From contig JACQOY010000007.1 in assembly GCA_016207765.1 (NCBI GenBank), forward strand, positions 1 through 13,103: a DNA stretch of 13,103 nt, in the 5' to 3' direction. Position numbers and translations under genes: made by a program. This DNA is from Deltaproteobacteria bacterium (GTDB lineage Bacteria; UBA10199; SBBF01). The notes below the pieces were generated by a model. That model saw only the letters and a program-made list of their open reading frames with translations. It had not been told where the DNA came from and ran no database searches. Shown here piece after piece: positions 975 to 13,070 of this stretch. Position 1 is the stretch's first letter, and each line of letters starts with the position of its first letter.

Positions 975-1859
975 ATGGGAAGTCCAATAAATCCAACAGC
1001 AGGTTCATCGGGAATAGCGGGTCGTGTGGAACGGGAGGAACAGAATCCCGCCGGTACCGCCGCGGAGCAGGGAAAGAAAAGGATTGAAGACGGCCAGAAA
1101 GCGGATGAGGAAATGGCCGCCAATGCCGAAATGGCCAGCGAAGGGGCAATGATCGCCATCGATCTTGCCTTGACGGCCATATCGGTTATTCCGGGAGGAG
1201 GGGCCGTGTCTGCCGGAGGAAAAGTCGCCGAACAAGGGGCCAAAGTGGCTATCGAGGCAAGTAAAGAAACCGCCAAGGCGGCGACAAAAGTGGCCAAAGA
1301 AACGGCCCAAGCGGGCGTCAAGGCGGCCAAGGAAGGGATGAAAGCGGGAGTCACCGCCGCCAAAGAGACGGCCAAGACGATGACAAAAGAAGCGGGCAAA
1401 GCGGCCATCGCCACAGCCAAAGAGGCAGGGAAGGAATCGCTCCATGCCGCCAAAGAAGTGGGCAAGGTGGGTGTCCAAGCGGCAAAAGCCGAGGGAAAAC
1501 AAGTGGTCAAGGCGACCCAAGAACTTGGCAAAGAAGCGGTCAAAACGGCAAAGGCCGAAGGGGTCAAGGCCTTTAAGGAAAGCAAAGAGGCTTTCAAGGC
1601 GGCCAAAGAAGTGGGCGATAAGGCGGGTATCAAACAGGCAAAGGAAGCCCTCAACACAGCCCGCAAAGAAGCTGGGGAAGGACTTAAAGGGGTGACCAAA
1701 ACACTTGAGTATTCAAAGGCCGGCATCGGAATTGCGACCAGCGGTTTTGCCGCGGTCAAACGCCGCGATCCAATGGGGGTCGCAAAAGCGGGCGGCAAGG
1801 CGGCCGAAATCGGCATTAAGGAAGGGGCGCAAGCCGTCAAAAAAGACAAGACCTCCTGA
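975..1859 (+). CDS. unrecognised 294-aa Lys/Ala/Glu-rich protein with 11-residue amphipathic helical repeats
   Basis: I do not recognise a specific family. Residues 1-55 are polar. Residues 57-80 are a mildly hydrophobic, glycine-containing segment (AMIAIDLALTAISVIPGGG). Residues 90-240 are almost entirely Ala, Lys, Glu, Gly and Val arranged as AAKE(x)GK-like units. The AKE-type motif falls at about 107, 118, 129, then 148, 159, 170, 181 and 192, which is an 11-residue period with one phase shift. This hendecad pattern is known from LEA group 3 proteins, apolipoproteins and synuclein-like lipid-binding helices. There is no signal peptide and no Cys. A GGAG ribosome-binding site lies 10 bases before the ATG, and the upstream gene ends 17 bases away. 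The repetition makes the reverse strand look open as well (long Ala/Leu/Ser frame), which I take as a shadow. A membrane-surface or stress-protective role is inference from repeat type only. Confidence 0.75.
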   Translation: MGSPINPTAGSSGIAGRVEREEQNPAGTAAEQGKKRIEDGQKADEEMAANAEMASEGAMIAIDLALTAISVIPGGGAVSAGGKVAEQGAKVAIEASKETAKAATKVAKETAQAGVKAAKEGMKAGVTAAKETAKTMTKEAGKAAIATAKEAGKESLHAAKEVGKVGVQAAKAEGKQVVKATQELGKEAVKTAKAEGVKAFKESKEAFKAAKEVGDKAGIKQAKEALNTARKEAGEGLKGVTKTLEYSKAGIGIATSGFAAVKRRDPMGVAKAGGKAAEIGIKEGAQAVKKDKTS

Positions 1860-1897
1860 GGCGGCATTTCTAGACATTCTCCCAACCGTTTTCTATA

Positions 1898-1983
1898 GTA
1901 GGGGCGATCCTTGTGATCGCCCTTCTTTTCTGGGCAACCCCATAAAGAGGGGCCGTTTGCACAGACACAAGGTTTGCCCCTAC
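1898..1983. repeat. 86-bp palindromic repeat abutting the der start codon
   Basis: The element is bounded by GTAGGGGC (1898-1905) and its inverted copy GCCCCTAC (1976-1983). The match extends inward with gaps, since both arms contain CCTTGTG or its complement. The left arm is itself a perfect hairpin: GGGCGATC (1902-1909), loop CTTGT, GATCGCCC (1915-1922). The interior holds CCCC (1938-1941) against GGGG (1949-1952), and GGGCAA (1932-1937) can pair with TTGCCC in the right arm. Terminal inverted repeats around short nested hairpins are typical of REP/MITE-like dispersed elements. The last base of the repeat is directly followed by the ATG of der. Confidence 0.7.
1901..1931 (+). terminator. 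intrinsic-terminator-like hairpin formed by the left arm of the repeat
   Basis: A perfect 8-bp GC-rich stem (GGGCGATC / GATCGCCC, 5-base loop) is followed at 1923-1931 by TTCTTTTCT. It lies 42 bases past the stop of the repeat-rich protein gene and could end that transcript before der. If it works, the repeat supplies the terminator, and der would need a promoter inside or just after it, which I cannot identify. Confidence 0.45.
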
Positions 1984-3363
1984 ATGCAAAAACCCTTAGT
2001 CGCCATTGTCGGTCGTCCCAACGTCGGCAAATCCACACTTTTTAATCGCCTTGTCGGAAAACGGCAGGCTCTTGTCCAGGATCGCCCCGGTATTACGCGC
2101 GACCGCCATTATGCCGAGGCCGAGTGGGATGGGACCATCTTCCGCCTTGTCGATACCGGGGGCCTCGAATTTCAAACAACCGACCGTCTTCAGAAAAAAA
2201 TGTCTGATCAGGCCTTTCGCGGCATCGAAGAGGCCGATTGTATCCTCTGTGTGGTAGACGGCAAGGTCGGTGTCACCACTCTCGACCGCGAATGGGTCGA
2301 AAAAATCCGCAAGATCAACAAACCGAAGCTTTTCGTCGTGAACAAGGTCGACTCCGCCAAGGATGAGGCCCTTTTGGCCGATTTTTATCCCCTCGGCATG
2401 GATCCGATGTTTCCCGTTTCGGCGGAAACGTCGCGGGGCATTTCGGATTTGTTGGATCGGCTAATAGCGAACTTGAAGGAGACTCCTCCCCTTTGTAAGG
2501 GGAGGCCGGGTGGGGTAGAGGAGTTGGCCGGGATTTCTACCTCCCCCAACCCCTCCTTACAAAGGAGGGGAGAAAACGAACTAACCATCTCCATCATCGG
2601 CCGCCCCAATGTCGGAAAATCCACGTTGCTCAATCGTCTGTTGGGTGAAGAACGGGCCATTGTGGACGAGACGCCGGGAACTACACGCGATCCCATCAAC
2701 ACTCATCTGACCGTTGACGGAACCATCATCTGCCTGATTGATACGGCGGGAGTCCGCAAAAAAGGAAAAACGGACAAGGCTATCGAAAAATTTTCCATCA
2801 TCAAAAGCTTAAAAAGCATTGAGGAATCCGATATCACCCTTTTGGTCATCGACGGGGCCGAAGGGATTACCGATCAGGATTGCCACGTGGCGGGCCAGGC
2901 CTTTGAAAAAAACAAGGCCATTATCATGCTGGTCAACAAATGGGATGAAGGGGTCAAAAAAACAAGTCGCGACCAATTTCTCGATCATTTAAAGCGGAAA
3001 CTTCACTTTACCCCCGACAGCCCGGTCCTTTTTATCTCGGCCAAGACAGGGGCGAAGGTCGAAAAAATATTTCCGACAATACTCCGCATTCAAAAACAGT
3101 ACGAATACCGGGTTCCCACGGCGGAACTCAACAGGGAGTTTGCCCGTATTATCGAAAGGCATCCTCTGCCGGTTTTCAAGGGAAGGAACATCAAAATTTA
3201 TTACGCAACGCAGACCGGAATAAAACCCCCGACATTTGTTGTTTTTTCAAACGAACCGGGTAAAATCCATTTTTCATACGAGCGATACCTGAATAATGCC
3301 CTCCGGGAGGCTTTTGGTTTTACCGAAGTGCCGGTCAAGATATTGTTCAGGAAGAGAACATGA
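1984..3363 (+). CDS. der: ribosome-assembly GTPase Der (EngA), with an in-frame repeat-derived insertion
   Basis: Der is an essential double-GTPase that binds the 50S subunit during assembly. The protein has 459 residues. Domain 1 has the P-loop GRPNVGKS at 10-17, DTGG at 57-60 and NKVD at 120-123. Domain 2 has GRPNVGKS at 206-213, DTAG at 253-256 and NKWD at 318-321. A KH-like C-terminal domain covers about 380-459. All guanine-nucleotide motifs look intact. Between the GTPase domains, residues 167-196 (TPPLCKGRPGG ... SLQRRGE) come from an inserted palindromic repeat; without it the length is near the usual 430-440. The ATG at 1984 is chosen because MQKPLVAIVGRPNVGKS is the normal Der N-terminus; the frame stays open further upstream only by chance. 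The sole ribosome-binding candidate is AAGG about 11 bases upstream, inside the abutting repeat. The stop overlaps the next start as ATGA. Confidence 0.96.
   Translation: MQKPLVAIVGRPNVGKSTLFNRLVGKRQALVQDRPGITRDRHYAEAEWDGTIFRLVDTGGLEFQTTDRLQKKMSDQAFRGIEEADCILCVVDGKVGVTTLDREWVEKIRKINKPKLFVVNKVDSAKDEALLADFYPLGMDPMFPVSAETSRGISDLLDRLIANLKETPPLCKGRPGGVEELAGISTSPNPSLQRRGENELTISIIGRPNVGKSTLLNRLLGEERAIVDETPGTTRDPINTHLTVDGTIICLIDTAGVRKKGKTDKAIEKFSIIKSLKSIEESDITLLVIDGAEGITDQDCHVAGQAFEKNKAIIMLVNKWDEGVKKTSRDQFLDHLKRKLHFTPDSPVLFISAKTGAKVEKIFPTILRIQKQYEYRVPTAELNREFARIIERHPLPVFKGRNIKIYYATQTGIKPPTFVVFSNEPGKIHFSYERYLNNALREAFGFTEVPVKILFRKRT
2484..2572. repeat. palindromic repeat inserted in frame within der
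   Basis: The left arm (2484-2516) and right arm (2539-2571) form an imperfect terminal inverted repeat of about 33 bases. Each arm is also a hairpin around the shared core TTTGTAA: CCTCCCC/GGGGAGG on the left and CCCCTCC/GGAGGGG on the right. The element is read through without stops and adds about 30 residues with the character PPLCKGRPGG ... NPSLQRRG to the linker between the two GTPase domains of Der. Insertion of palindromic elements in frame into genes is known for Rickettsia palindromic elements. This one is a different sequence, and its family was not checked. Confidence 0.85.
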
Positions 3364-11697: not shown

Positions 11698-11726
11698 TTG
11701 ACATTCAAAAGCGATTCATGTACTGG
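11698..11726 (+). promoter_or_regulatory. weak promoter candidate for the cysteine-leader transcript
   Basis: TTGACA (11698-11703) is a perfect -35 hexamer. At 17 bases spacing stands TACTGG (11721-11726), a poor -10. A start near 11733 would put the leader-peptide ATG (11736) almost at the 5' end, a leaderless arrangement. If transcription starts further upstream, GGTGA (11725-11729) is available as a ribosome-binding site 6 bases before the ATG. I cannot choose between these. Confidence 0.25.
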
Positions 11727-11735
11727 TGAAAAGTA

Positions 11736-11849
11736 ATGCATAATGAACTCGCTCAAATCATTCCTTCAAAAAACGGCGCCTGCGGGTGTTGCTGTATGTG
11801 TACACAGCCGGCGGCGCGCTGGATGAGCGGGTTTGCGGTCCTCTCTTAA
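11736..11849 (+). CDS. cysteine-rich leader peptide (37 aa) upstream of the sulfate-binding protein gene
   Basis: A short frame from ATG 11736 to TAA 11847-11849 encodes 37 residues with the run CGCCCMC at positions 16-22, that is five Cys and one Met in seven residues. Cysteine is rare elsewhere in this window, and consecutive Cys codons (11787-11795: TGT TGC TGT) are hard to explain by chance. GGTGA (11725-11729), complementary to the 16S rRNA tail, lies 6 bases before the ATG. The Cys codons overlap the first strand of a hairpin that controls a downstream antiterminator/terminator pair. The gene that follows takes up sulfate, the source of sulfur for cysteine. The peptide is probably a sensor read by the ribosome rather than a functional protein. 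Poly-cysteine leader ORFs that act as cysteine-responsive attenuators are known in mycobacteria. Translation here is inferred, not shown. Confidence 0.72.
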   Translation: MHNELAQIIPSKNGACGCCCMCTQPAARWMSGFAVLS

Positions 11850-11913
11850 TCGCTAATCCTTAAATCATCTAAGCTTGGTCCCGCCGGCTGAAACAAAACG
11901 CCGGAAGGGCGGG
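11776..11913 (+). promoter_or_regulatory. transcription attenuator with exclusive antiterminator and terminator helices
   Basis: Four segments are seen. Segment 1 (11776-11795) pairs with segment 2 (11804-11817) through GCGCC/GGCGC and GCTGT/ACAGC. Segment 2 can instead pair with segment 3: CAGCCGGCGG (11805-11814) is perfectly complementary to CCGCCGGCTG (11881-11890). Segment 3 also forms the 5' arm of the terminator with segment 4. A further stem, 11821-11829 with 11851-11859 (8 pairs, one mismatch), brings segments 2 and 3 together. The Cys codons of the leader peptide are in segment 1. A ribosome waiting at the early Cys codons would block segment 1, free segment 2 to hold segment 3, and let transcription continue. 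A ribosome reaching the stop at 11847 would leave 1:2 paired and permit termination. The pairings are read directly from the sequence; the behaviour is inferred from the trp/his attenuation model. Confidence 0.7.
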
Positions 11914-11930
11914 TGTGTTTTTGTTTTTTC
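11880..11930 (+). terminator. intrinsic terminator in the leader of the sulfate-binding protein gene
   Basis: CCCGCC (11880-11885) pairs with GGCGGG (11908-11913), with an inner GGC/GCC extension (11886-11888 with 11900-11902) or an alternative CCGGC/GCCGG stem. A U-rich tract follows (TGTGTTTTTGTTTTTT, 11914-11929). It points along the plus strand and ends about 14 bases before the ribosome-binding site. The only plus-strand gene upstream, ligA, ends 1.4 kb away beyond an opposed gene, so its natural target is the leader transcript of the sulfate-binding protein gene itself. Confidence 0.75.
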
Positions 11931-11954
11931 TCGTTTTTTTAAAAGGAGAATGAA

Positions 11955-12998
11955 ATGTTCATCGATCAAAAAATTAATCGGGTTTTTAAAACTCTGATTT
12001 TTGCTTTTAGTTTTCTGGTAGTTCCTCTCATATCACATGCCGATGTGACGCTCTTGAACGTCTCGTACGATCCGACACGGGAGTTCTACCAGGAATTCAA
12101 CTCCGCCTTCGCCAAACAGTGGCAGACGAAAAAGGGAGAGAAGGTGACGATTAATCAATCCCACGGCGGATCGGGAAAACAGGCCCGCGCCGTCATCGAC
12201 GGCCTTGAGGCCGATGTCGTTACATTGGCTTTGGCCTACGACATCGACGCGATTGCCGAAAAAGGGGGATTGTTGCCCGCCAACTGGCAGAGCCGTCTTC
12301 CCAACAACAGCACGCCATATACCTCCACCATTATTTTTCTGGTGAAGAAGGGAAATCCAAAGGGAATCAAGGACTGGGACGACCTGGTGAAACCGGGACT
12401 CTCGGTCATCACGCCGAACCCCAAAACCTCCGGCGGGGCGCGCTGGAACTATCTGGCGGCGTGGGGTTATGCGCTGAAAAAATACGGCAATGACGAGGCA
12501 AAGGCAAAAGAGTTCGTCGCCCAACTCTATAAAAATGTGCCGGTCCTTGATTCAGGCGCCCGTGGCTCCACGACAACGTTCGTGGAACGGGGAATCGGCG
12601 ATGTCCTGATTGCTTGGGAAAACGAGGCCTATCTGGCAGTGAACGAAACCGGTAGCACCGGTGGCGTCGGCAAGGGGAAATTCGAAGTGGTCATCCCGTC
12701 GGTAAGTATTCTGGCGGAACCGCCGGTGGCTCTGATCGACAAGGTGGTCGACAAACACAAAACACGCGAGGTCGCTCAAGCCTATCTGGAATATCTCTAT
12801 TCCGATGAAGGGCAGGAGATCGCGGCCAAACATTATTTTCGCCCCCCTTCGGCCGCAGTCGCCGCAAAATACACTGGCCGTTTTCCCAAACTGAACCTGT
12901 TCACCATCGACGAACTATTCGGTGGTTGGAAAAAGGCGCAGGCGAAACATTTTGCCGATGGCGGACTGTTCGATCAGATTTATGAAGGGGCAAAGTGA
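11955..12998 (+). CDS. sbp: periplasmic sulfate-binding protein of an ABC importer
   Basis: The protein has 347 residues. Residues 1-29 form a Sec signal peptide (basic start, hydrophobic [12 protein letters not shown], cleavage expected after SHA). The mature part has the family features: [17 protein letters not shown] (33-49), [11 protein letters not shown] (68-78), [12 protein letters not shown] (87-98) and the signature NPKTSGGAR (155-163). It should bind sulfate (possibly thiosulfate, as CysP does) and deliver it to a CysTWA permease for assimilation into cysteine. AGGAG lies just before the ATG at 11955. No permease gene is visible in the 105 bases after the stop, which hold a palindromic repeat. 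The leader has a cysteine-rich peptide and a terminator/antiterminator, so expression is probably raised when charged cysteinyl-tRNA is scarce. It may equally carry chromate, given the divergent chrA-type gene. Confidence 0.95.
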
Positions 12999-13028: not shown

Positions 13029-13070
13029 CCCCCCCCTCTTAATGTTAAGAGGGGGCGGGGGGGAGTTAAG
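13029..13070. repeat. palindromic repeat after the sulfate-binding protein gene
   Basis: CCCCCTCTTAA (13032-13042) pairs perfectly with TTAAGAGGGGG (13045-13055) around a 2-base centre, followed by GGGGGGG and AGTTAAG. The plan (C tract, short A/T core, G tract, second G tract, AGTT) resembles the left arm of the element inside der, though the sequences differ. It may be one arm of a longer element whose second arm lies beyond the window. No U tract follows, so it is not a clear terminator, but it could stabilise the upstream mRNA end. The last 33 bases (13071-13103) hold nothing I can identify. Confidence 0.6.

Follow-up and report, generated by a model that had tools for sequence, protein, structure and literature searches.

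A 37-codon open reading frame (ORF) with clustered Cys codons, separated by 105 nt from a gene for the sulfate-binding protein of an ABC importer (sbp), is most probably a cysteine-sensing leader peptide gene through which a sulfate-uptake operon is controlled by ribosome-mediated attenuation. The window analysed is one entire contig of 13,103 bases from an incomplete deltaproteobacterial genome (G000; 1.89 Mb in 256 contigs). Computation shows the ORF and its conservation, the covariation of an RNA helix, hairpins that resemble terminators in two lineages, the geometry of the promoter and the genes targeted (Table 1); translation, stalling, the start site and the direction of the response we infer.

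Table 1 Features of the leader region and its target gene in the window.
Feature	Position	Strand	Basis or remark
TTGACA, candidate −35 box of leader promoter	11698..11703	+	TTGAC[A/G] upstream of ATG in 9/9 leaders
TACTGG, candidate −10 box, weak (two of six consensus positions)	11721..11726	+	17 nt after −35
Cys-rich leader ORF, 37 codons (MHNELAQIIPSKNGACGCCCMCTQPAARWMSGFAVLS)	11736..11849	+	six homologues elsewhere in the phylum
Strand 1, overlapping Cys codons; possible partner of strand 2 (protector hairpin)	11773..11793	+	duplex −26.0 kcal/mol
Stretch with Cys codons, residues 16, 18, 19, 20, 22	11781..11801	+	
Strand 2, CAGCCGGCGG, putative antiterminator 5' arm	11805..11814	+	10-bp perfect complement of 11881–11890
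Enclosed hairpin between strands 2 and 3 (GGATGA..TCATC)	11821..11869	+	fold; most stem bases same in G001
Terminator-like hairpin	11873..11916	+	−16.7 kcal/mol beside T-rich tail; 0/100 shuffles as good
Strand 3, CCGCCGGCTG, common to putative antiterminator and terminator	11881..11890	+	fold, duplex tests
U-tract of terminator-like hairpin (GTTTTTGTTTTTTC)	11917..11930	+	sequence
GGAG, Shine-Dalgarno of sbp	11945..11948	+	sequence
sbp, sulfate-binding protein of ABC importer	11955..12998	+	contig ends behind sbp

Translation of the window returned the frame, its ATG, its stop and the run CGCCCMC at residues 16–22 just as the initial annotation had described them, and the ATG is the earliest possible start, with an in-frame TGA three codons upstream (TGAAAAGTAATG). 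The frame is short, and start-to-stop ORFs with three Cys in seven residues arose in 769 of 10,000 cases when the 306-nt upstream region (+ strand) was dinucleotide-shuffled, which would suit a chance ORF; however, four in seven arose in 37 shuffles and five in seven, as found here, in only two, and homologues in six other genomes refute chance, leaving that explanation a negligible probability. Among the remaining stop-terminated frames on both strands of the window, none reaches four Cys in seven residues. The 37-codon frame is thus real.

Homologous leaders were sought in the 46 genomes of the phylum, a number equalled by the class search. A close sbp (E 1e-80 or better) is present in 13 of these genomes (G000, G001, G002, G005, G006, G010, G011, G013, G017, G026, G028, G038 and G043) and a weaker relative in three more (G021, G031 and G044). 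A Cys-rich leader heads the sulfate operon in seven of the 13, representing six genera and four families: the window's genome, G001 (40 aa; L025 3759–3881), G010 (31 aa, 9 Cys, C-terminal end CMCMCICI), G013 (31 aa), G017 (37 aa), G026 (37 aa, 8 Cys) and G043 (33 aa). These are short leader ORFs with clustered Cys codons, as attenuators have, save that G043 has just three, scattered, and would be a weak sensor. The leaders were recovered by different routes: by a scan upstream of sbp (G001), by a regular expression upstream of sbp (G010), by a search with the window peptide in which G013 (E 0.011) and G017 (E 1.64) were recognised by their place before a porin-sbp operon, and by a one-mismatch DNA pattern (G026 and G043). 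The leader and sbp of G026 lie on two contigs, and the sequences suggest a single operon because the DUF2292 frame ending the sbp contig resembles the start of the ORF after the leader. No leader was seen in the other six close-sbp genomes, where sbp, if its start is readable, lies 44–90 nt from the neighbouring frame; G002 and G038 offered scant upstream sequence for the scan.

The 46 genomes contain four copies of the exact sequence ATGTGTAYNNNGCCGGC, every one of them at one of these leaders. A profile of the seven peptides searched against 385 genomes returned the seven at E 5.5e-16 to 2.9e-10, values due partly to the model having been built from them, with the next match at 0.0037; behind 15 of the 30 weaker matches, which were inspected by eye, no sulfate gene was recognised. 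Searches of predicted proteins with P0002 and with the seven-peptide alignment, in which candidates had to share three 5-residue words, gave no match, as would be expected if gene callers overlook the frame; weak protein matches in G024, G016, G019, G035, G005, G029 and G045 were rejected by eye. Orthologues with a broken frame or without the Cys codons, which the initial annotation had named as grounds for abandoning its proposal, were looked for among the leaders, and all seven keep an open frame with 3–9 Cys codons.

The genes behind the leaders serve the supply of the amino acid encoded in them. The sulfate-uptake gene proposed for the window is confirmed, sbp matching NF008022 (542 bits) and TIGR00971 (505 bits) far above cut-off. 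It is the first gene after the leader in the window and in G001, where it is followed by cysT, cysW and an ABC ATPase gene. The first gene is a porin gene (Porin_O_P) in G010 and, by position and resemblance, in G013, and a DUF2292 protein gene followed by a porin gene in G017 and G043 (the G043 porin by eye), so that in the relatives DUF2292 and porin genes precede sbp. Two tandem sbp copies stand behind the single leader in G017 and G043 (L118 4622–6648 and L228 8492–10519), with 76% and 65% identity to the window protein. The upstream neighbour of the leader is a chromate transporter gene in the window and an aminotransferase-like frame, identified by eye, in G001, which indicates that the leader goes with the sulfate operon. 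In the window this chromate efflux transporter gene (TIGR00937; 10461–11648, − strand) stands head to head with sbp; chromate enters cells through sulfate importers, and the pairing may therefore be functional.

Beside each leader lies a potential RNA helix. A GCCG strand (strand 2) starts exactly 5 nt past the last clustered Cys codon in 7/7 leaders, and a complementary strand (strand 3) with compensatory changes follows 54–75 nt downstream, also in 7/7. Over eight positions and six distinct rows 94% of cells are paired, covariation is 0.442 against 0.196 in shuffles and a maximum of 0.167 when slid, and four pairs are changed on both sides; these figures only lean towards the 2:3 helix, since 70 of 500 shuffles also reach four such pairs and complementarity was itself the basis on which strand 3 was picked. 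A fairer duplex test, in which a fixed 24-nt stretch following the last Cys codon was set against shuffled downstream sequence, clearly beat shuffles in four of the seven (p 0.002 in G000, 0.001 in G010, 0.001 in G013 and 0.009 in G043) and was not clear in G001 (p 0.20), G017 (p 0.08) and G026 (p 0.25). When leaders were crossed, the own downstream region was the best partner in just four of seven (G010, G013, G017 and G043), because the GC-rich strands resemble each other. Positions 11802–11900 fold at z −4.33 and the whole leader at z −2.06 relative to shuffles. When the RNA is cut 12 nt downstream of strand 3, the minimum-energy fold keeps 5–8 of the eight 2:3 pairs in 7/7 leaders; with RNA up to the gene start it keeps the helix in 5/7, G017 and G043 preferring other folds, and RNAalifold, given only G000 and G001, selected different helices. 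The duplex of strands 1 and 2 has p 0.07 against shuffles in the window and 0.01–0.75 over the seven leaders. Homologous Cys-rich leaders and a covarying helix before sulfate operons thus support the initial annotation in its proposal of an analogous cysteine-responsive attenuator.

Two other explanations of a conserved Cys-rich frame were weighed against attenuation. Cys-rich peptides can bind metals, and the ORF might encode a functional peptide, for metal or thiol binding or as a nascent-chain sensor, whose place before sbp reflects co-transcription. Residues other than the clustered Cys do recur: all seven peptides contain M-C, followed by P in six, and (F/L)-(A/T)-Q, such as F-A-Q, returns near the N-terminus of five (G000, G010, G017, G026 and G043) with synonymous codon changes, residues of which plain attenuation gives no account. 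However, length (31–40 aa) and C-terminus vary freely, all seven leaders head sulfate operons, and the most constrained stretch is the one able to pair with downstream RNA, where a residue alternates between A and T with the pairing (GCCGGCG with CGCCGGC, GCCGACG with CGTCGGC); we consider a functional peptide improbable. Lower still do we rate a metabolite- or protein-binding RNA of which the Cys-rich frame would be a by-product. The 26-nt identical run and largely unchanged inner hairpin shared by G000 and G001 would suit such an RNA, as would the possible alternative helices, but in the more distant homologues the nucleotides diverge while the open frame and the Cys codons stay, the latter alternating synonymously between TGT and TGC. 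Moreover, Rfam at gathering scores gave no match in the window or eight related loci, the sole row being a chance-level SNORA57 (E 0.82).

The output stage appears to differ between the relatives. In the window, strand 3 doubles as the 5' arm of a hairpin that is followed by GTTTTTGTTTTTT; G010 has the same arrangement in quite different sequence, with a hairpin of −15.5 kcal/mol followed by eight T that 0/100 shuffles equalled. A mutually exclusive antiterminator and terminator can be recognised in these two genomes; a recognisable terminator is absent from the other five leaders, the closest relative G001 included, and a terminator scanner restricted to loops of 3–8 without bulges lists neither the window's hairpin nor that of G010. 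In G013 a stretch is complementary to the Shine-Dalgarno (SD) region (p 0.013, with the first gene taken to start at GTG), and such pairing is weaker in G017 (p 0.037) and G043 (p 0.083), which suggests a fold that probably hides the SD in G013 and perhaps in G017 and G043. The same comparison is at chance in G000 (p 0.85) and gives no hint in G001 and G026, where neither a terminator nor an SD-hiding fold was found. With terminator-like hairpins in two lineages and anti-SD hints in three, the sensor seems common to all seven leaders and the output stage to have changed between them.

A uniform output is the rival here: the same sensor could act translationally or through Rho in all lineages, the window's hairpin being no working terminator. 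The five leaders without terminator and the anti-SD pairings favour this, as does positions 11875–11925 folding alone no better than shuffles (z −0.24); mycobacterial Cys leaders, too, lack conserved terminators in the part of PMC1262725 available, and PMC13236596, seen likewise in part, terms their control translation attenuation. Against it, hairpin and U-tract overlap strand 3 in both G000 and G010 and were equalled in 0/100 shuffles, and anti-SD pairing in the window's genome does not exceed chance. We regard a uniform non-terminator output as unlikely, if still the explanation to be taken most seriously after the preferred one.

The preferred reading, classical attenuation, accounts for the Cys codons, the helix, the terminator and the target. 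The transcription start would lie on the ATG or only a few bases from it, which would place the leader ORF at the very beginning of the message. When Cys-tRNA is short, a ribosome would stall in the Cys codons, covering strand 1 and freeing strand 2; strand 2 could then pair with strand 3 as an antiterminator, which would take away the 5' arm of the terminator and let polymerase continue into sbp. When Cys-tRNA is ample, the ribosome would run on, strand 2 would be masked or re-paired with strand 1, the terminator would form and sulfate uptake would be off. In the relatives, this leader and helix would be coupled to a terminator (G010) or, probably, to a fold that hides the SD (G013, perhaps G017 and G043). 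The direction, with uptake on when Cys-tRNA is short, is taken from physiology. One weak point is the strand 1:2 pairing needed for shut-off in the window, given its p value. Another is spacing: a ribosome held at the window's last Cys codon would cover part of strand 2, and as the 5-nt spacing would let it hinder the helix, stalling must occur mostly on the earlier Cys codons unless the last one has some further role. The end of strand 2 lies 35 nt upstream of the end of the window's stop codon, too far for a terminating ribosome to cover it; in G010 and G013 strand 2 would be covered.

Promoter geometry points to a message with almost no untranslated leader. TTGAC[A/G] ends 30–33 nt before the ATG in 8/9 leaders and 40 nt before it in G013, as TTGACG; as background, 20 of 2210 ATGs in the same sequences carry the motif 28–34 nt before. 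A TA-initial hexamer follows 17 nt on in 8/9 (18 in G010), matching TATAAT at merely 2–4 of six positions, and G001 has TATTTG at the site of the window's TACTGG; a standard promoter scan of the window listed no promoter at the leader. AGGA, GGAG, GAGG and AAGG are absent from the 15 nt before the ATG in 9/9 leaders. The GGTGA that had been put forward as a ribosome-binding site is present at 11725–11729, but it overlaps the candidate −10 box and reads TGTGA in G001, and that role is unsupported; given TTGACA 30–33 nt before the ATG in 8/9 leaders and no SD motif, it is probably part of the promoter instead. With ordinary sigma-70 spacing the message is predicted to start about 0–4 nt before the ATG in 8/9 leaders, and about 3 nt before it in the window. 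Promoter geometry and the lack of an SD motif together suggest that the leader ORF is probably leaderless or nearly so, like the poly-Cys ORFs of mycobacteria.

An analogous leader was found in a second phylum. Outside the first phylum, 25 genomes have sbp at E 1e-30 or better, and inspection upstream of sbp in 18 of them gave such leaders in two, G195 and G333, which belong to one family and two genera and were the sole representatives of their phylum in the search. Their peptides end in FCCRCICR* and FCCCICR*, respectively, and a DUF2292 gene, a porin-like frame (by eye) and sbp follow. The promoter geometry is the same as in the first group, and after the stop both have a hairpin that begins alike and then a second one whose stems differ yet pair in both. 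These leaders may share descent with those of the first group or may have arisen separately. Nothing clearly above the opposite-strand control was found in the other 16 genomes, four of which have ORFs with three Cys in six, against three such ORFs on the control strand. A looser scan added a few ORFs, such as one in G087 with five Cys in nine, nearly 4 kb before sbp. Scanning of 16 of 18 DUF2292 loci gave stop-to-stop frames with three Cys in seven in G262, G312 and G371, besides G195 and G333.

Wider searches added no convincing leader. The pattern CxCCCxCTQP had three matches in GTDB genome contigs, all chance on inspection, and TGYNNNTGYTGYTGY, searched in eight genomes, was far too common to discriminate, the short ORFs in 29 loci and ten picked places being inspected as peptides alone. 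No leader was found at 30 PAPS reductase/sulfurylase-family loci, where the only new ORFs with four Cys in seven, in L028 and L075, looked unrelated, and a plasmid collection gave one unconvincing match each by protein and by DNA.

Attenuators of the trp, his and leu operons combine a leader peptide rich in the regulated amino acid with a mutually exclusive antiterminator and terminator. Both elements recur here; the differences are the cysteine signal, the sulfate-uptake target, a leader ORF without SD motif and an output stage that apparently varies among the relatives. T-box and S-box riboswitches control cysteine and methionine genes and likewise place cysteine-related control in the 5' leader, whereas here nothing matches Rfam and the proposed sensor is a translated ORF.

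The literature searched consisted of titles and abstract openings, with subscription journals thinly covered, and the papers named here were available in part. Cys leader peptides have been predicted in the Mycobacterium cys operon, P. acnes and B. longum cbs, with no conserved terminator hairpins found for them (PMC1262725). They resemble the present leaders in having Cys-codon runs in short leader ORFs before cysteine genes, and differ in that a terminator/antiterminator pair is recognisable here in G000 and G010. Poly-cysteine leaderless short ORFs of mycobacteria were described by Canestrari et al. 2020, as summarised in PMC9031893 and PMC13236596 and cited as the experimental paper in PMC9094748, while PMC4633059 states that no bacterial examples for cysteine would precede its own candidates. 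As described, the mycobacterial ORFs are likewise short, with clustered Cys codons at the head of sulfur or cysteine operons, leaderless there and probably nearly so here, and cysteine supply would in both cases be read by ribosome speed; here, in contrast, the hosts belong to uncultivated phyla, the target is a sulfate importer with porin and DUF2292, and there is a 2:3 helix with, in two lineages, a terminator-like hairpin. The likeness is one of description, and we claim no kinship.

Within that literature, demonstrated cysteine attenuators are confined to mycobacteria, with predictions for a few other Actinobacteria, no report of a Cys leader peptide outside Actinobacteria was found, and terminator/antiterminator parts for cysteine are unreported. 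The best reading is a known kind of device, cysteine-responsive attenuation, in new lineages and on a sulfate importer. We lean, though only slightly, towards a broader view in which Cys-codon attenuation is widespread, or has evolved repeatedly, for sulfate uptake in at least two uncultivated phyla outside Actinobacteria, acting on leaderless messages with one conserved sensor (Cys codons and a helix 5 nt behind the last) and different outputs, among them the first full terminator/antiterminator attenuator for cysteine. If so, the four-family series and its second-phylum analogue would give cysteine attenuation a more general place in the control of sulfate uptake, and the seven natural variants would offer a single sensor that seems to be coupled to different outputs. 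The near-leaderless start, as in mycobacteria, raises the question of whether a leaderless leader ORF gives a better Cys readout.

Elsewhere in the window, positions 13029–13055, which follow closely on sbp towards the end of the contig, hold a palindrome-like CCCCTCTTAATGTTAAGAGGGG, and a GTPase-like frame (1705–3363) includes at 2482–2577 a stretch rich in proline and glycine (TPPLCKGRPGG..PSLQRRGEN). Both are perhaps dispersed palindromic repeats; the repeat finder, at the settings used, reported no pairing at either place. An alanine/lysine-rich frame at 975–1859 contains five degenerate 27-nt repeats between 1309 and 1812.
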